A stretch of 51,900 nucleotides of DNA, from contig JASEGV010000012.1 in assembly GCA_030017895.1 (NCBI GenBank), forward strand, positions 1 through 51,900, read 5' to 3'. Numbering within the stretch: the first letter of the stretch is position 1; each line of letters opens with the position of its first letter. A program made the position numbers and the translations under genes. The notes under the pieces are model-generated. The model was given only the letters and a program-made list of their open reading frames with translations. It did not search any database and was not told the DNA's origin. Origin of the DNA: Bacteroidota bacterium. GTDB lineage: Bacteria; Bacteroidota; Ignavibacteria; UBA10030; BY39. This document shows positions 1 through 9,333 of this stretch, in pieces.

Positions 1-393
1 ACAAACCTTACATTACCTGCAAAAGTAGTATGGGATTTATACAGAAACAGAGCAGATGCAGAGAATCGAATAAAAGAATTGAAGGAAGATTTTGGAGCTG
101 GCAGTTTTAATGTACAAGAATTTTTTGCAACAGAGGCAGCATTAAATTTTGTTATGATGGGATATAATCTAATGAGTTTGTTCAGGCAAGTGATAATGCA
201 AACAAAAACTCATGCACAATTAAAAACACTACGCTACCGAGTATTTGCTATTGGATCATACATTGTAAAAAATGGTAACGAAAGAATATTAAAACTATCA
301 TTAGCTATGAAACGAAGAAGTTGGTTTGAGGGACTCTGGGCAAATACAAATCTTTTTAGCTGGCCTTTTGTTGTTTCAAATGATTATTCCTAA
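1..393 (+). CDS. IS1380-family transposase, C-terminal part (start lies outside the window)
   Basis: The frame is open from base 1 and ends at a TAA at 391-393, so this is the 3' end of a longer gene. The visible residues contain the Y-(2)-R-(3)-E-(6)-K signature of IS4/IS1380-type DDE transposases (Y14, R17, E21, K28 counted from base 1, in the context LYRNRADAENRIKEL), carrying the third catalytic acid. The downstream part (FFATEAALNFVMMGYNLMSLFRQ) is the typical IS1380 tail. The protein would catalyse cut-and-paste transposition. The left end of the element is not in the window, so I could not match terminal inverted repeats or a target duplication; the right end must lie between about 394 and 450. 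Whether the element is intact is unknown. Confidence 0.85.
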   Translation, partial: TNLTLPAKVVWDLYRNRADAENRIKELKEDFGAGSFNVQEFFATEAALNFVMMGYNLMSLFRQVIMQTKTHAQLKTLRYRVFAIGSYIVKNGNERILKLSLAMKRRSWFEGLWANTNLFSWPFVVSNDYS

Positions 394-450: not shown

Positions 451-1605
451 TTATGCAACTAATACTTCTTGCGTTTTTTTAGTTAATTCGGCAGGTGTGA
501 ATGGTTTAGGGATGATATCTGAAGCACCTAATTTTATTGCTTCTATAGCATTTTCAATTGAGGCATATCCTGAAATCAAAATTACCGGGATTTCGGGCCA
601 ATTGCTTTTAATTGACTGCAAAACTTCTATACCGCTCCGTTTTGGCATCTTTAAATCTAACAGTATCAAATCGTATCTATTTAGTTTCATTTTTTGGAGT
701 GCGGCATCGACGTCGAATGCTTCTTCAACAACACAGCTCTGTTTAGATAAAATTCTGCGGACACTGTGGCAAACTATAGGTTCATCGTCAACTACTAATA
801 CTGAATGCTTTGCCGTTGCATCTCTGCCCCATAATGCTGCTAATGGTATATCGGATCTGCTGAGGCAATTAATGTAATCCGAACTTGTTGCTTGTTCAAC
901 ATCCGAAATGCTGAATGGCAGGTCAACATCGATAATTTCAGATGTATATCTTTTTATTTTAACGGCTTTTGTCCGTTCTTTCTTTTCGAGTGGACATTCA
1001 CTAACACATTCACGGCCTTCAGTAATTACTCGACGACATTCACGTTTTCCCAAATTACAGTATGCTTTGAGTGCTGTTTTTTTTGCAAGCGGTATATCAG
1101 TATGAGTGAGAGCTTCAACATATTCTATCGAGGTTGCTTTGGCTACTTCGTTTATATTGAATGGCATATCCACATCGATTATGTCGTAAGTTTGATCATC
1201 AACCTTGGGTTCAACTTTTCGTTGTTCAATCTTTATTTGTCTTTGGATTAAAGCTTTTTTTGTGGCTTCAGCCAATTCATCGGGAGTGAATGGTTTTGGT
1301 AAGTAGCTCGAAGCGCCAAGCTTTGTTGCCTTAACTGCTGATTCGATGGATGCGTAGCCGGTGATCATTATTACTTCGAGTTCAGGATAATGATCGCGAA
1401 TAATCTGCATCAATTCCATTCCGTTAGTTTTAGGCATCATCAAATCAGTAATTACTAAATCAAATGAGGTTTGATTAATTTTTTTGACTGCATCTTCAAC
1501 ATTCAATGCGTTATCGATTTCATATCCTTTGCGGGAAAGAATTTTTTTGATGCTCTGACAAACAATTTCTTCGTCGTCAACCACTAATATTTTTTCAGTT
1601 ATCAT
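451..1605 (-). CDS. Response regulator with two receiver domains and a duplicated Cys-bearing linker, no output domain
   Basis: 384 residues in the order receiver 1 (about 4-121; acidic pair D10/D11, phospho-acceptor D54, T82, K104), linker, receiver 2 (about 267-384; acceptor D317, K367). The linker carries the same roughly 35-residue motif twice (140-174 and 222-256; core IIDVDxPFxI, then ATSxxY and SDIPLA/TDIPLA). Between the copies are four cysteines, C183-x6-C190-x9-C200-x3-C204. No DNA-binding or enzymatic domain is visible, so signalling is probably by protein contact or phosphate flow (inference). The arrangement receiver-motif-motif-receiver looks like two related regulators fused head to tail. 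The start has an AAGGA-like site about 9 nt upstream. It lies downstream of the kinase/NtrC pair on the same strand and has its own sigma54-type promoter. The cysteine set could bind metal or sense redox, but nothing here proves it. Confidence 0.85.
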   Translation of the reverse strand: MITEKILVVDDEEIVCQSIKKILSRKGYEIDNALNVEDAVKKINQTSFDLVITDLMMPKTNGMELMQIIRDHYPELEVIMITGYASIESAVKATKLGASSYLPKPFTPDELAEATKKALIQRQIKIEQRKVEPKVDDQTYDIIDVDMPFNINEVAKATSIEYVEALTHTDIPLAKKTALKAYCNLGKRECRRVITEGRECVSECPLEKKERTKAVKIKRYTSEIIDVDLPFSISDVEQATSSDYINCLSRSDIPLAALWGRDATAKHSVLVVDDEPIVCHSVRRILSKQSCVVEEAFDVDAALQKMKLNRYDLILLDLKMPKRSGIEVLQSIKSNWPEIPVILISGYASIENAIEAIKLGASDIIPKPFTPAELTKKTQEVLVA

Positions 1606-1671
1606 ATTATTTTTCCTTTTCCTTTTCTTTTGGTTTTTGTTTAATTATCATTTTTATAATACACCAATAAT

Positions 1672-1687
1672 TGCAACGACTATGCCA
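1672..1687 (-). promoter_or_regulatory. Sigma54-type promoter (-24/-12) for the dual-receiver regulator
   Basis: On the minus strand the bases read TGGCATA-GTCG-TTGCA. This matches the RpoN consensus TGGCACG-N4-TTGCW with the right spacing of the GG and GC elements. The implied start of transcription is near 1661, giving a leader of about 56 nt to the ATG at 1605. A gene for a sigma54 activator lies immediately upstream at 1871-3256, which supports the call. Confidence 0.7.
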
Positions 1688-1708
1688 TTGATGTTGTAGT
1701 GGGAAATG

Positions 1709-1742
1709 ATTAGCTATAACTAATTATATTATAATGAGTTAT
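1709..1742. promoter_or_regulatory. Overlapping palindromes upstream of the sigma54 promoter, possible activator-binding site
   Basis: Positions 1716-1742 form a 27-bp palindrome: two 13-bp arms (ATAACTAATTATA / TATAATGAGTTAT) around one central base, with one mismatch. A second 16-bp palindrome at 1709-1724 (ATTAGCTATAACTAAT, one mismatch between halves) overlaps it, so ATAACT-like half-sites recur three times. The block lies 22-55 bp upstream of the -24 element, where an enhancer-binding protein could act. Assignment to the adjacent NtrC-type regulator is inference. Confidence 0.5.
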
Positions 1743-1870
1743 GGGTGAAAAAAAATATAGTAGTGTGAGAGATTAAAAATATTTAGAGCTAACAAAAAAA
1801 AAGAATATGCTGAAAAGAGGTGAGTATGCGAAAATTATGTAGATAAAAAAAATATACACCTGCATATAAA

Positions 1871-3256
1871 TTACTTGTTAATACCGTATTTCCGCATTAG
1901 GGCCTGAAAGTTGGAACGCTGCATCTCAACATCACGCGCAGCTTTCGATACATTCCAATCGTTGCGGATAAGAGCTTCTTCCACAAACATTTTTTCTATA
2001 TCCTGAATTGATGCTTCACGGATTTGCTTCTTGAGCTTTTTGAGTTCCTCAGTATCTTTTGGAATGAGGGAGTTGACTTGTGTTTCGGTTTTAAAGAGAG
2101 CGGCTGAAATATGAACAGGCAAAATCTCATCTCCGTCAATTAATATTGTCAATCGCTCAATTGTGTGCTCGAGTTCGCGAACATTTCCGGGCCAATGATA
2201 ATTTAGCATAACTTCAAAAGTTTCAGATCCGATTTTTAGAATTGGTTTTGCTAATTTGTTACAAGAAATTTTTAGAAATTGTTTTATCAATTCAGGAATA
2301 TCATCTTTCCTTTCACGGAGAGGAGGCAGTTTAATCGGGAAAACATTCAGCCGGTAATAAAGGTCTTCGCGGAATTTCCCTTCGCTAACCAAGTTTTTCA
2401 AATTCTGGTTAGTAGCAAAAATCAAACGGACATCAACATTTTTAATTTTTGTGCTTCCAACAGGAAGAATTTCTTTAGTTTGCAAAACGCGTAATAATCG
2501 TGACTGTACTTCAAGCGATAAGTTGCCGATTTCATCTAAGAAAATTGTTCCGTTATCAGCAGCGTCAAACAAACCTTGTTTATCGGATGTCGCTCCTGTG
2601 AATGAACCTTTCATGTGTCCGAACAATTCGCTCTCCAATAAGGTACTCGATAGTGTAGATATATCTATTGCAAAAAATTTTTTGTCTTTTCGGTTGCTGC
2701 AATTATGTATTGCTCGTGCTGTTAAATCTTTGCCGGTTCCGCTCTCACCGATTATTAAAACAGTGCAATCGGTGGGGGCAACTTTCCGGATTAAATTAAA
2801 CACCTCAATCATTTTAGGGCTTTTACCGATAAAACCTTCGGAGTCGGATGTTTCTGAAGACTCGGTATCGTCTCTCATACGCTGCATCAGTTTGAGTTTC
2901 TCTAATGCTCGGTTTAGAACTGCTAAAAGTTCGCCGGGTGTGAATGGTTTAGGGAGAAAATCGAATGCACCCGAACGCATCGTCTCGACTGCTGCTGCAA
3001 TAGTAGCATAACCCGTTATAATGATTACGACAGTTTCAGGATACCGCTGTTTGATTGTGGATAAAACCTCAAATCCGCTTATATCCAACATCTTCAAATC
3101 GGTGAAGACCACATCGAAAGATTCGGATTGTAAAAGTGCGAGCGCCTGCTTGCCCGATGTGCTGTATTTTACCTTGTGTCCTGCCCGCAGAAATATTTTT
3201 TCACAACTTTTACAAATTACTAATTCATCGTCAACGACTAATATTTTAGCTGTCAT
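1871..3256 (-). CDS. NtrC-family sigma54-dependent response regulator
   Basis: 461 residues from the ATG at 3256; a TTG at 3265 would add three residues. Domains: receiver (about 1-120; phospho-acceptor D53, T81, K103), AAA+ sigma54-activation domain (about 141-375; Walker A GESGTGKD at 170-177, Walker B region GTIFLDE at 236-242), and a Fis-type helix-turn-helix near the C-terminus. The sigma54-contact loop reads GSFTGA instead of the usual GAFTGA, at 217-222; this variant keeps the key F, T, G and A. The protein should drive RpoN promoters once phosphorylated by the overlapping kinase gene (11-nt overlap with its stop). A likely target is the sigma54 site at 1672-1687. Confidence 0.92.
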   Translation of the reverse strand: MTAKILVVDDELVICKSCEKIFLRAGHKVKYSTSGKQALALLQSESFDVVFTDLKMLDISGFEVLSTIKQRYPETVVIIITGYATIAAAVETMRSGAFDFLPKPFTPGELLAVLNRALEKLKLMQRMRDDTESSETSDSEGFIGKSPKMIEVFNLIRKVAPTDCTVLIIGESGTGKDLTARAIHNCSNRKDKKFFAIDISTLSSTLLESELFGHMKGSFTGATSDKQGLFDAADNGTIFLDEIGNLSLEVQSRLLRVLQTKEILPVGSTKIKNVDVRLIFATNQNLKNLVSEGKFREDLYYRLNVFPIKLPPLRERKDDIPELIKQFLKISCNKLAKPILKIGSETFEVMLNYHWPGNVRELEHTIERLTILIDGDEILPVHISAALFKTETQVNSLIPKDTEELKKLKKQIREASIQDIEKMFVEEALIRNDWNVSKAARDVEMQRSNFQALMRKYGINK

Positions 3257-5240
3257 TTGTTTCAATTTCTAATAATTTTATTGGTAGATAAATAGTGAAC
3301 GTAGTTCCGTTTCCTGTTATACTTTCGACATTAATCGTTCCGCCATGCTGCTCAATGATTCCGTAACTGATAGAAAGCCCTAATCCTGTGCCGTGCTCTT
3401 TTGTAGTAAAGAACGGGTCGAATATATTTTCCCGTATGTGTTCAGGTATCCCGGGTCCTGTATCCTTAATGGAGATTACAATCGAATTGCTATTAGTATC
3501 TAATTTTGATTCAATTGTTAAATCACCGCCACGTGTCATTGCTTCTGATGCGTTTAGAATAATGTTAATGAAAACTTGCTGAACTTGGTTGGGGTCTATC
3601 ATTATCTCCGGAATATCAGTGGGGAGATTTTTTTCAATTTTAATGTTTCGAAATGAAGTTTGATTTCTAACAAGAAGAATTATATTTTCGATTAAAGTAT
3701 TGATATTGGTTAGTTTTTTTTGTGGTGCAATTTGTTTGGCAAAATCGAGCAACCGCTTTACAATTTCGCGGCAGCGGATTGTTTCTTTTACGATAACTTC
3801 AACGTTGTCACGGTTCGGGTCGCCTTCTGGTAAATCTTCCAACAATAAGCTGCTGTTAGTTAGAATACCAGTTAACGGATTGTTGATTTCGTGAGCGACA
3901 CCTGCCGCGAGTTTTCCCAACGATGCAAGTTTTTCGGAACGGAACAATTGGGAATGGATTTTTTTGATCTCATTCGTCCGTTCTTCAACTTTTATTTCGA
4001 GTTTGTTTCCCCATTCTTCTAACTCACGTTGTTCATTCTTAAGTTCCTTTGCCATATAATTAAATGAGGATGCAAGTCGTTCAATCTCGCGCGGGGCTTT
4101 AAGTTTAAGGTCGTGGTTGTAATTACCCGCTGTTATTTCCACTGCGATTTCTTCTAATTGCTTCAGTGGTTTCGATATTTTTTTTGCTTGATGGATTGAT
4201 ACTAAAACTATTAAAAATATTCCGACCAATGTGATTCCAAGAAATGTGATCAACGTATTGCGTAATAAATCGTTGAACGGTTCTTTAAGAATTCCTACAT
4301 AAAGAATTCCGATAATTTTATTTTGAATATCCCTGATAGGCTCATAAGCACCGATGTACCAGGTATTAACCACAAACGCATCACCAATCCATCGTTTCCC
4401 ATCTCTCAGCACTGCATCGTTTACTTCTTCAGAAACGAGTGTCGCGATTGCCACTGTACCGTCCTCGTTTTTTACGTTGGTTGAAATTCGCAGGTCGTTT
4501 TGAAATATTGTAGCAGTGCTAACCTCTTTACCTTTATATAACTCCCGCTCCTGCATTATTGTTTTAATTTTTTCTACGATCTCGAAATTTCTATTCAACA
4601 AAATTCCGCCAATTAATACGCCTTGAAAAACATTCGATTCATCGAAAATCGGGACGGCTGCTTTCAACATCATACCTGATTTTTCTGCAAGTGATGTTCT
4701 GGGTTTAGCCATAGTAGTTGGAGTTATTTCCATGTGAGCTTGGTTTGCAAGGTCTCGCGATTCTTTAAATAATTGGTCTCCAGATATCACATCAGTTCCA
4801 CTTACTATCTGTTTTACTTTTATTACCTGTTTAACGAAATTATCATTCAACAGGATATCACCAGATGAATTCGGGTTTCTACCGCGTGAAATAACTTTTC
4901 CTTCCTTATCAACAATCGTTAAGATGTCGAGTTGTTCACGTTTGAGAGTTCTTAGCAGATCCTTCTGCAAAAAAACTCTATCGTTTTCGCTGACTGCTTT
5001 TATTACTAAACTTCTGGATGCTGTAAGTCGAACGATGCTTTCGATATGCGATATTTTGTTTAGGTAGATTTCACGAGCGGAGCTTAAATCGGAAACTACT
5101 TTCGTTTCAGCGCGTGTAATAATCTGGTCGTAAATTAATTTTACCCCCACTATACTTGTAATTTCCGCCGGAATAATAATAGCTATCGTGAAATAAATAA
5201 TTAATTGGGATTGGATGCTCTTGGCAGAAATTTTCTTCAT
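3246..5240 (-). CDS. Membrane histidine kinase with periplasmic Cache-type sensor (NtrB/ZraS-like)
   Basis: 664 residues. Order: transmembrane helix about 12-34; a large extracytoplasmic Cache-like sensor about 35-328 (with [16 protein letters not shown] and ...[12 protein letters not shown] blocks); second transmembrane helix about 329-350; HAMP about 350-402; coiled coil; HisKA dimerisation domain with phospho-accepting H450 in [11 protein letters not shown]; and an HATPase domain with the N box, DTGPGIPE and GTGLGLS motifs. It should autophosphorylate on H450 and pass phosphate to the NtrC-type regulator whose gene overlaps its 3' end. The ligand cannot be told from sequence; Cache sensors bind small molecules such as carboxylates, amino acids or metal-related cues (family knowledge). 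Confidence 0.9.
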
Positions 5241-5310: not shown

Positions 5311-5896
5311 TTGAATTTTTATTTTGGATGAGAATTAACTAAATTTGAACCGTATGAATAAAACACTGTCTAAGCAGAAAATCGAGAGCTTAGTCCAAAC
5401 GTTCCATGCCGGGAAGAGAGGAACTATCAACGAAGCGGAGACCCGCCTCCGTTTCATCGACCCTTTCTTCGAAGCGTTGGGCTGGGAAATCAGAAATACA
5501 AAAGAGGTGCGAATTGAATCGGCTCTTGCTCGATCTGATTCAACACGACCCGATTATCGTTTCCTGATCGATGGAAAAACAAAATTCTTTGTCGAGGCAA
5601 AGAAACCATCTGTAAAACTCACCGACCCTGCGCCTATATTTCAGGCGAAGTCGTACGGCTTTAGCTCGAAAGTTTCAGTCGTTATTCTCACCGACTTCGA
5701 AGAGTTCCGTCCGTTCAGAACTCTTGCCCGCCCGAAATTCGACCGACCGCTTGATGGACTGATTAAAGAGTTCGACTTCACTTATGATCGTTATGTAGAT
5801 GAGTTCGATACTCTCTACGATATTTTTTCTCGCGAAGCAGTTGGCAACGGTGCATTGGAGAAACATATCCCGGTGGATAAAAAAGAATCATCAAAG
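5311..5896 (+). repeat. Upstream copy of a 586-bp direct repeat (5' part of the type IIG gene)
   Basis: This stretch aligns without gaps at an offset of 1016 bp to 6327-6912. It includes about 43 bp upstream of the start codon and the first 181 codons. The first part differs at many synonymous sites, but 5684-5846 is identical to 6700-6862 over 163 bp, which suggests recent gene conversion of one segment. Similarity stops at 5896, just before the TAA that ends the upstream copy. Confidence 0.9.
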
Positions 5897-5899
5897 TAA
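5354..5899 (+). pseudogene. Truncated copy of the type IIG restriction enzyme N-terminal (nuclease) domain
   Basis: 181 residues from the ATG at 5354, which aligns with the start of the full gene at 6370; a TTG at 5345 is also in frame. The protein is nearly the same as residues 1-181 of the 987-residue enzyme, including the PD-(D/E)XK-type residues (RPDY ... VEAKKP) of the HsdR-like N-terminal domain. It then hits a stop exactly where homology ends. It has no methyltransferase or specificity part. Most likely it is a dead remnant of a partial duplication. An alternative is that it still makes a small nuclease-domain protein or serves as a donor for recombination with the intact gene. Confidence 0.8.
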
Positions 5900-6329: not shown

Positions 6330-6912
6330 AATTTTCATTTTAGATGAGAATTAATTACATTGCAAGCGTATGAATCAAAAACAATCCAAGCGAATAATCC
6401 AGAGCTTAGTACAAACGTTCCATGTTGAGAGGAGAGGAACTATGAACGAGGCAGAAACCCGCCTACGTTTCATCGACCCTTTCTTCGAAGCCTTGGGCTG
6501 GGACATCCGTAATCCAAAAGAAGTTCGGATTGAATCTGTACTTGCACGCACGGATTCTACACGACCGGATTATCGTTTCCTGATAGATGGAAAAACGAAA
6601 TTCTTTGTCGAGGCAAAGAAACCGTCTGTAAAACTCACCGATCCTGCGCCAATCTTTCAGGCAAAGTCGTATGGATTTAGCTCGAAAGTTTCAGTCGTGA
6701 TTCTCACCGACTTCGAAGAGTTCCGTCCGTTCAGAACTCTTGCCCGCCCGAAATTCGACCGACCGCTTGATGGACTGATTAAAGAGTTCGACTTCACTTA
6801 TGATCGTTATGTAGATGAGTTCGATACTCTCTACGATATTTTTTCTCGCGAAGCAGTTGGCAGCGGTGCATTGGAAAAACATATTCCAATAGATAAGAAA
6901 GAAGCATCCAAA
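6327..6912 (+). repeat. Downstream copy of the 586-bp direct repeat
   Basis: Counterpart of 5311-5896 at an offset of 1016 bp. It covers the leader (GATGAGAATTAA is shared by both copies) and the first 181 codons of the intact type IIG gene. See the upstream copy for the pattern of identity. Confidence 0.9.
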
Positions 6913-9333
6913 ACGGTTGATAAGGAATTTCTTGCCGATCTTTCAACATGGCAAGAAGAGCTTGCAAAAAATATCGCCTTGCGTAATTCCAAGTTATCAG
7001 TCGGCGAAATAAACGAAGCTGTCCAGCGCATACTCGACCGGATGATATTCCTGCGCATCTGCGAGGACAGGCAGATCGAAGAGAGCGAAATCTTACTCAG
7101 CTATAAGGATAAAGAAGAAATTTATAAAAAGCTGTTAAAAGAATTTGCACGCCTGCGTTTAAAGTTCAATGGTTTAATCTTCAACGAGCATGAGCTAACC
7201 GAAAATCTTGCGATAGATGATAAACTGCTAAAGGACATTATCAAAAATCTTTACCTGCCTTACTCTCCATACCGTTTCAACGAAATTCCTATTGAAATTC
7301 TCGGAACAATATACGAACAATTCCTTGGAAGGGTAATAACGCTTACACCAACGCACAGAGCAAAGGTTGATATTAAACCGGAAGTTCGCAAAGCGGGCGG
7401 CGTGTTCTATACACCGCAGTTCATTACATCTTACATCGTGAAGAATACTATCGGAACGCTAATTGAGGGAAAGACTCCCGAGCAAATCTCAAAGCTCAAG
7501 TTTGCCGACATTGCCTGTGGCAGCGGCTCGTTTCTGCTTGAAATGTTCGATTATTTAATTCGTTATCACATCGATTATTACGGTTCAAATCCCGGCACAA
7601 TAAAAACGACTGACGGAATTCCCGATGCTTATAAGGATGCGCAGGAATTATGGCACCTTTCATCCCGGAAGAAAAAAGAAATTCTGCTAAATAACATTTA
7701 CGGTATTGATATTGACCCGCAGGCGGTTGAAGTAACTCAGATGAGTTTGTATTTGAAATTTTTGGAAGGTGAAAATGCCGAATCGTTCGATAAACAACTG
7801 ACGCTTGAGCTGAAAGAAACGATACTGCCAACACTCTCTAACAACATCAAGTGCGGTAACTCGCTTGTGGGTATGGATATTAAAGGTTTGGGCAACAATC
7901 TTTCTCTTGAAGACGAATTGAGGATACGTCCGTTTGATTGGGAGACGGCGTTTCCAGAGATAATGCGTCCTTCGACAAGCTCAGGACAAGGGTTTGACGC
8001 GATTATTGGCAACCCGCCGTATGTAAGACAAGAAACTTTGGGCGGGTTTAAATCATATTTTGAAGAACATTACAATGTCTATCATGGTATTGCTGACCTA
8101 TATACCTATTTTATTGAAAAAGGATTTTCACTTTTAAAAAATGGCGGACTCTTTAGTTATATCGTCGCCAACAAATGGATGAGAGCAAATTATGGCGATC
8201 CTCTTCGTAAATGGATGAAGGAAAAATCTATCGAGGAGATTATCGACTTTGGCGATCTTCCAGTATTTCAAAGTGCGACTACGTATCCATGTATAATACG
8301 CCTTAAGAAATCTATTCCTCAAAAATCATTGACTGTCGTTCAGGTAAAATCTCTCGATTCTCTAAATCTTGAAAAATATGTAAGTGAGAATGGCTACCGA
8401 GTTACTCAAGAAAATTTACAAGATTCGGGATGGTCGCTTTCGGATGAAAGTACTCTTCTGTTTTTAGATAAACTAAAGGACAACTGTAAACTGCTCGGTG
8501 ATTATGTTGAAGGCAAAATTTATCGTGGAGTTTTGACTGGATTAAACGAAGCATTTGTAATTGATAAAGAAACAAGGGACGAAATCATACGTGAAGATTC
8601 TAAATCCAAAGAATTGATAAAACCTTTCTTGGCTGGTCGGGATATTAAAAGATATGCAATGCCTGAGATAACGAAATATCTTATCTTGATTCCATCCGGT
8701 TGGACAAATGAGAATTCAAAGGGAATAAGAGACAAATGGAGTTGGTTTGAAAATACTTATCCTGCCATTGCGAAACATCTAAAAGTATCCGAAGCGGATG
8801 CAAAAGCCCGATACGACCAAGGTGAATATTGGTGGGAACTTCGGTCATGCGATTATTATACTGAATTTGAGAAACCTAAAATAATGCTACCGGATATTTC
8901 AACAAGAGGCAACTTTATTCTCGATGATCAAGATACATATTGTGTCAACACATGCTACATAATATCAAGCTCTGATAAGTACTTACTTGGGATACTTAAT
9001 TCCAAGCTCATGACTTTCTTTTATAGTAAAATATCTTCGGTTTATCGCGGTGGGTATCTCAGGTTTATCTATCAATATCTTGTTGAACTTCCCATCCGCA
9101 CAATCGATTTTAACAATCCGGAAGAAAAAGCAATGCACGATAAGATGGTGCAGCTTGTCGAGAGGATGTTAGACCTACATAAAAAGAAACAACAATCCAA
9201 AGCGGAGAGCGAGAAGGAATTATTCGAGCACCAGGTCAAAGCGACGGATAGGGAAATAGATCAACTAGTTTACAAGCTTTACAACATTACAGAGGAAGCG
9301 AGAAATATTATTGATGTTAATACATTAAAATGA
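6370..9333 (+). CDS. Type IIG restriction-modification enzyme (nuclease, N6-adenine methyltransferase and target recognition in one chain)
   Basis: 987 residues. The N-terminus is an HsdR-type PD-(D/E)XK nuclease domain (P66-D67 in RPDYRF, E81-x-K83 in VEAKKP). A helical connector follows (about 185-330). The Eco57I-type methyltransferase domain starts with GGVFYTPQFIT near 343-353, with SAM motif I ADIACGSG (379-386) and catalytic motif IV NPPY (548-551). The C-terminal half resembles a TaqI-type specificity domain (YRGVLTGLNEAF, LAGRDIKRY) and ends in a coiled coil. One chain would therefore recognise, cleave and methylate DNA. All key motifs are present, so it is probably active. A small dispersed repeat adds R533-Q540 just before NPPY. 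An ORF6N gene follows by 16 nt, probably in the same transcript. Confidence 0.93.
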   Translation: MNQKQSKRIIQSLVQTFHVERRGTMNEAETRLRFIDPFFEALGWDIRNPKEVRIESVLARTDSTRPDYRFLIDGKTKFFVEAKKPSVKLTDPAPIFQAKSYGFSSKVSVVILTDFEEFRPFRTLARPKFDRPLDGLIKEFDFTYDRYVDEFDTLYDIFSREAVGSGALEKHIPIDKKEASKTVDKEFLADLSTWQEELAKNIALRNSKLSVGEINEAVQRILDRMIFLRICEDRQIEESEILLSYKDKEEIYKKLLKEFARLRLKFNGLIFNEHELTENLAIDDKLLKDIIKNLYLPYSPYRFNEIPIEILGTIYEQFLGRVITLTPTHRAKVDIKPEVRKAGGVFYTPQFITSYIVKNTIGTLIEGKTPEQISKLKFADIACGSGSFLLEMFDYLIRYHIDYYGSNPGTIKTTDGIPDAYKDAQELWHLSSRKKKEILLNNIYGIDIDPQAVEVTQMSLYLKFLEGENAESFDKQLTLELKETILPTLSNNIKCGNSLVGMDIKGLGNNLSLEDELRIRPFDWETAFPEIMRPSTSSGQGFDAIIGNPPYVRQETLGGFKSYFEEHYNVYHGIADLYTYFIEKGFSLLKNGGLFSYIVANKWMRANYGDPLRKWMKEKSIEEIIDFGDLPVFQSATTYPCIIRLKKSIPQKSLTVVQVKSLDSLNLEKYVSENGYRVTQENLQDSGWSLSDESTLLFLDKLKDNCKLLGDYVEGKIYRGVLTGLNEAFVIDKETRDEIIREDSKSKELIKPFLAGRDIKRYAMPEITKYLILIPSGWTNENSKGIRDKWSWFENTYPAIAKHLKVSEADAKARYDQGEYWWELRSCDYYTEFEKPKIMLPDISTRGNFILDDQDTYCVNTCYIISSSDKYLLGILNSKLMTFFYSKISSVYRGGYLRFIYQYLVELPIRTIDFNNPEEKAMHDKMVQLVERMLDLHKKKQQSKAESEKELFEHQVKATDREIDQLVYKLYNITEEARNIIDVNTLK
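7965..7992. repeat. Small dispersed repeat inserted in frame in the type IIG gene
   Basis: The stretch CCTTCGACAAGCTCAGGACA and its edges encode RPSTSSGQ and lie directly before FDAIIGNPPY. This sequence is a familiar dispersed repeat core in environmental bacterial genomes (reverse complement CCTGAGCTTGTCGAAGG). The GTCCT and AGGAC ends are inverted. It keeps the reading frame, so the host protein simply gains about eight residues before its catalytic motif. Confidence 0.6.

Follow-up and report, generated by a model that had tools for sequence, protein, structure and literature searches.

A sensor histidine kinase, a sigma54-type activator and a twin-receiver protein form what reads as a conserved three-gene signalling unit in an uncultured lineage of Bacteroidota, in which the twin-receiver gene is very probably the only one that the activator turns on. 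The conserved genes, the promoter, an enhancer-like array and the co-occurrence of these parts make up the observed side of this circuit, and the promoter logic is well supported; the cofactor of the twin-receiver protein, the sign of its feedback and a redox input are proposed by analogy. According to the proposed mechanism, the Cache-domain kinase would phosphorylate the NtrC-type activator, which, in line with what is known of its family, would bind to paired TGCATA-N6-TATGCA dyads at the 3' end of its own gene, loop onto sigma54-RNA polymerase at 1672-1687 and turn on essentially one gene, that of the dual-receiver protein. The induced protein may then feed back on its own kinase, either by docking on it or by taking its phosphate, and its four invariant cysteines could bind an Fe-S cluster or a metal, thereby making the feedback dependent on redox or oxygen. 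Taken as a whole, this reading of a one-target sigma54 loop, which makes a redox-tunable feedback receiver working like FixT or Osp, has about an even chance of being correct.

The unit lies in the window, by which we mean the whole stretch of 51,900 nucleotides that was analysed, from contig C12 of a 3.2-Mb assembly with 176 contigs. The relevant features are:

3246-5240, minus strand: sensor histidine kinase with Cache sensor, HAMP, HisKA (HEINNP) and HATPase domains (Pfam)
1871-3256, minus strand: NtrC-type activator with a REC domain, an AAA+ domain containing GESGTGK and GSFTGA, and a Fis HTH
451-1605, minus strand: dual-receiver protein of 384 aa (Pfam and a 17-sequence alignment)
1672-1687, minus strand: sigma54 -24/-12 element TGGCATAGTCGTTGCA (sequence, and conservation in 17/17 loci)
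1716-1742, no strand assigned: 27-bp ATAACT palindrome ATAACTnATTATAnTATAATnAGTTAT, the site pointed out by an earlier note on this DNA (conservation and shuffle tests)
1840-1878, minus strand: likely activator enhancer array (16/24 positions matched in the window, 17-22/24 in 15 orthologs)

The end of the kinase gene overlaps the start of the activator gene (3246 versus 3256), for which a TTG at 3265 provides an alternative longer start, and a gap of 265 bp separates the activator gene from the dual-receiver gene, next to which the earlier note had correctly placed an NtrC-type activator. The orthologous set comprises 17 loci, namely the window and 16 loci from related genomes, in which the kinase gene is syntenic; an uncultured Bacteroidota relative encodes a dual-receiver protein that is 95% identical to that of the window. 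In two genomes, a second kinase, 44-47% identical and followed by a receiver-containing regulator, is found near the unit (L033:13973-16267 and L034:8456-10753), and it is possible that this pair is a diverged duplicate. Two further genomes contain the dual-receiver gene only in pieces (L046, G003:C30:6558-7051, and L020, G079), which are possibly decaying copies or assembly errors. In the genome of the window itself, another activator locus (L087, G000:C2 near 38105) has an extra receiver coding region just upstream, and receiver proteins next to sigma54 activators may be recurrent in this genome. Beyond the kinase gene, a 184-aa ORF (5345-5899, plus strand) is almost a copy of the N-terminal part of its 987-aa neighbour (6370-9333, plus strand), which by eye resembles a restriction-modification enzyme; the ORF reads as a truncated tandem duplicate of this N-terminus.

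The dual-receiver protein consists of a first receiver domain (REC1, residues 1-122), an IDVDxPF repeat (143-172), a four-cysteine segment, a second IDVDxPF repeat (225-254) and a second receiver domain (REC2, 267-384); the two repeat copies share 12-19 of 30 residues within each protein. Between the receivers lies a conserved four-cysteine region of around 110 residues, which speaks against the description of the protein as output-less in the earlier note. Its cysteines, C183-x6-C190-x9-C200-x3-C204, are invariant in the 17-sequence alignment, and so is C247. The conservation profile indicates that the linker is more than a spacer, with scores of 0.66-0.70 for its parts versus 0.73-0.75 for the receivers, while the true spacer at 123-140 reaches only 0.20. 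Structure prediction for six sequences yielded folded receivers and a linker with a pLDDT below 50, and the fold search returned receivers and PleD only, with PleD as the top PDB match. Searches of PDB and Pfam with the linker gave nothing significant, and the C-x6-C-x9-C-x3-C spacing did not match any curated Fe-S family; the 4Fe-4S domain Fer4_20 was hit by one member with 15.4 bits (E=0.017), which is below the gathering threshold of 25.8 and thus does not place the protein in that family. Among 396 genomes across the phylum, the linker was found in four carriers, all from the same class, and in no alternative architecture. By analogy, the prospects for the cysteines binding an Fe-S cluster or another metal are roughly balanced.

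Two receivers in one chain are known from FrzZ. They are also present in PleD (REC-REC-GGDEF); the protein described here, however, lacks a C-terminal GGDEF domain according to Pfam and is therefore not a PleD-type protein. For the four-cysteine/IDVDxPF linker, no counterpart was found in dual-receiver proteins of the FrzZ or PleD type.

One of the nearest functional parallels is the FixL-FixJ-FixT loop of Caulobacter, in which the receiver protein FixT is induced by FixLJ, acts as an inhibitor of FixL and uses four cysteines to bind an Fe-S cluster (PMC7078487). As in that loop, a receiver protein that lacks a DNA-binding output and carries a four-cysteine motif would here be induced by a kinase and a DNA-binding regulator. 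FixT, however, consists of one receiver, and its cysteines lie close together within that domain, whereas here two receivers flank a separate linker that contains C183, C190, C200 and C204 in a spacing different from that of FixT. The activator is of the NtrC/sigma54 type, unlike in the FixT loop, and the feedback is assigned by analogy. The protein is thus not a member of the FixT family, and we therefore propose that it works like FixT, not that it is a FixT. A second parallel is Osp of Rhodobacter, which is induced by CtrA and inhibits CckA (PMC9430884). As in the CckA-ChpT-CtrA-Osp system, whose regulator site is conserved upstream in related genera, the receiver gene would be activated by the system's own regulator; Osp differs in being a single-domain protein in a CtrA rather than a sigma54 circuit, and the abstract mentions no comparable cysteine region (PMC9430884).

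By the same analogies, the chance that the dual-receiver protein feeds back on the kinase is slightly below even. Among the receivers of the sigma54 activators encoded in the genome, that of the cognate activator is the closest to REC1 after REC2, which is consistent with a shared kinase. It was suggested in the earlier note that the receiver protein buffers or redirects phosphate, and in this alternative the protein would act as a phosphate sink or as part of a branched relay, competing for phosphate or passing it on, with the cysteines having a structural role. The phosphorylation residues of both receivers, namely the phospho-Asp residues D54 and D317, the acidic pairs D10/D11 and D273/D274, T82, K104 and K367, are invariant in all 17 orthologs, which speaks for this part of the suggestion, since a pure docking protein could lose them. 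However, a simple sink would need neither a linker that is as conserved as the receivers nor five invariant cysteines, so that simple buffering is weakened, and FixT keeps the receiver form and yet is not a competing receiver (PMC7078487). The sink or relay is rather unlikely, and direct feedback on the kinase appears, by analogy, at least as likely as phosphate buffering.

A forward effector, which like the sink we rate as rather unlikely yet still a serious alternative, would act on an enzyme or complex, for instance a heterodisulfide-reductase/hydrogenase electron-transfer complex or polysaccharide export, instead of acting back on the kinase. This possibility, like the main reading, draws on the neighbouring genes: in families f2, f5, f6 and f10, most loci with readable flanks lie near genes for HdrB/HdrC, HdrA-like proteins, Vhu- or sulfhydrogenase-type [NiFe]-hydrogenases or hydrogenase maturation proteases, and exopolysaccharide genes flank the unit in f1. 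A match to the [NiFe]-hydrogenase family was found in 17 of 17 carriers versus 87 of 133 other relatives (Fisher p=0.0013, a value that ignores relatedness). The co-occurrence of CCG domains, present in 149 of 150 genomes, is uninformative. The family of the window itself has no Hdr or hydrogenase neighbours and carries genes for exopolysaccharide synthesis and export downstream. However, the neighbours vary between families and the three regulatory genes stay together, and a terminator-like hairpin lies between the dual-receiver gene and the polysaccharide operon of the sister species. At the end of the contig, the window contains a transposase-like fragment, named by eye (1-393, plus strand, and about 400-410), which is apparently inserted just 3' of the dual-receiver gene, where the sister species has the hairpin; the sister species continues with polysaccharide genes, which are beyond view in the window.

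The element TGGCATA-GTCG-TTGCA (1687-1672, minus strand) precedes the dual-receiver gene by 82 nt and has the exact GG-N10-GC spacing, as reported by the earlier note; it scores 18.4 bits versus a shuffle mean of -0.2, and its position predicts a transcription start near 1661. An element of this kind is found at the corresponding position in 17 of 17 orthologous loci, with the first nucleotide 48-82 nt ahead of the ATG, and is individually significant against shuffles in 16 of them (p<=0.007), L035 being weak (p=0.04). In a site-anchored alignment, TGGCA and TG are invariant in 16 sequences, and just upstream there is no column-by-column conservation. Across the genome, the strict sigma54 pattern occurs no more often than its reversed control (two matches each), and therefore the case for the promoter rests on conservation and not on rarity. 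The genome encodes one rpoN (PF00309, E=1.5e-13), whose absence would have spoken against the promoter, and gives 17 strong matches to the sigma54-activator domain. The locus combines a -24/-12 element of the form TGGCAYR-N4-TTGCW with fixed spacing, rpoN, an activator with AAA+ domain, Walker A motif and GAFTGA loop, and, in 16 of 17 loci, dyad-symmetric upstream activator sites in the form of the candidate array. With these properties, the sigma54 promoter at 1672-1687 can be assigned to the dual-receiver gene with high confidence. The only other strict match in the genome lies before a Wzz/GumC-like polysaccharide gene, named by eye from the translation (L073:1319-1335, 1380-1396 and 1501-1516; G000:C9:45746); two GTGTAA-N5-TTACAC palindromes are located around 120 and 180 bp upstream of it, so that another sigma54 promoter, served by a separate activator, is probable at this site.

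The 27-bp palindrome at 1716-1742, 28-55 bp upstream of the T of the -24 element, exists as the earlier note had described it, with 24 of 26 positions symmetric, but is not supported as the control site. It is only marginally unusual, since six out of 200 dinucleotide-shuffled versions of the 265-bp gap equal it; in the sister species, one pair is lost and 75 of 200 shuffles do as well. The palindrome is absent from the 15 further orthologous loci, and no second copy that could define a regulon was found in the genome within three mismatches. Poor conservation and the lack of further copies rule it out as a conserved operator, and it is probably genus-specific or incidental. A real genus-specific operator, added to the ancestral sigma54 promoter and bound by a repressor or a second activator, would fit the high symmetry, the uniqueness of the palindrome in the genome and the surrounding block, which differs less between the two species of the genus than does the stretch immediately upstream; in view of the shuffles, the decayed sister copy and the absence elsewhere, however, this is improbable.

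A better candidate for the activator site, overlooked in the earlier note, is located at the stop codon of the activator gene. In the orthologs it has the form TGCATA-N6-TATGCA-NN-TGCATA-N7-TATGCA, that is, two dyads of 18-19 bp, which are around 20 bp or about two helical turns apart. In the window, the first half-site has decayed, leaving a degenerate half followed by TATGCA-GG-TGTATA (1866-1853) and TATCTA. In 15 orthologs, the array agrees with this pattern at 17-22 of 24 positions, each with p<=0.006; the window has the weakest of the 16 arrays, with 16 matching positions out of 24 (p=0.018). Since the gaps N6 and N7 were fixed after viewing the loci, these p-values are partly fitted and a little too favourable. 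Independent support comes from the unchanging location next to the stop codon in 16 of 17 loci, and the most distant, seventeenth locus has the related TATACATCCGTATA at the matching place. The half-site TGCATA is kept across AT-rich and GC-rich genomes. Across loci, the array lies 101-186 bp upstream of the -24 element (centre at 172 bp in the window), which is the usual enhancer layout. NtrC-type sigma54 activators of Desulfovibrio mostly recognize palindromic sites with arms of 4-6 bp and gaps of 3-8 bp and often target adjacent operons; one of them, DVU2394, controls an alcohol dehydrogenase/heterodisulfide reductase operon (PMC3333781, PMC4641369). The arms and gaps of the array fit the palindromes mapped for these two-component regulators (PMC3333781), which share the GAFTGA-type activator with the system described here, although the predicted target here is one receiver-protein gene. 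The array is likely the enhancer of the activator, and there is a good probability that the neighbouring activator acts on the promoter through it. That the array is instead an RNA element, with tandem hairpins ending the activator mRNA, is very unlikely: such hairpins are predicted for the majority of the arrays analysed (z -1.3 to -2.2), but the TGCATA sequence itself is conserved, whereas an RNA stem needs complementarity only, no consistent T-run follows the array in GC-rich loci, and there is no Rfam match.

The activator has the full RR-AAA+-Fis architecture of a sigma54 activator, including an intact GSFTGA loop, and the GSFTGA/GAFTGA loop is intact in all 15 orthologs checked. Its DNA-binding tail (MQRSNFQALMRKYG-type) is nearly invariant, as expected if the orthologs bind the same site. 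Orthologs of the activator (E<=1e-200) are present in 15 of 150 relatives, all of which carry the dual-receiver gene, in single copy and always adjacent. The exact array core occurs once in the genome; the array combined with TGGCAY at a spacing of 150-210 bp was likewise found once in the own genome, at this promoter, with one match in the control. Neither the surroundings of the orthologous loci, scanned over around 250 kb, nor the genome of the window itself yielded a clear second array-plus-promoter pair. A regulon search with array and -24 element in 17 genomes returned the orthologous promoters and scattered single matches with unchecked gene-start positions, at an expectation, by our own estimate, of around 0.4 chance matches per genome; no Hdr operon carrying the array turned up. 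The same array was also considered as a means of autoregulation of the kinase operon, which was rejected, as the 260 bp preceding the kinase gene contain no array in any of 13 loci. Given rpoN, the conserved -24/-12 element, the complete activator and the constant co-occurrence, the order of events suggested in the earlier note, from the kinase via the NtrC activator to an induced receiver protein, is the best reading.

Kinase, activator, enhancer, promoter and single target together make a compact example of a whole circuit that conservation allows to be read in an uncultured lineage. In addition, the analysis brings out a family of twin-receiver proteins that share a conserved four-cysteine linker covered by none of the Pfam and PDB families searched; Fe-S-gated feedback by two-component systems thereby becomes open to testing beyond Caulobacter. 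More speculatively, receiver-(IDVDxPF)-4Cys-(IDVDxPF)-receiver proteins might be a new class of redox sensors, FixT-like but from another phylum and with their own cofactor-binding region, whose metal or Fe-S state would set the feedback exerted on a dedicated sigma54 two-component system, coupling it to hydrogen/heterodisulfide electron flow; by analogy, we regard this as conceivable but unlikely. If the proposed circuit holds true, the main target of a sigma54 activator would be a second receiver protein, and the system would ultimately control either signalling itself or an enzyme.
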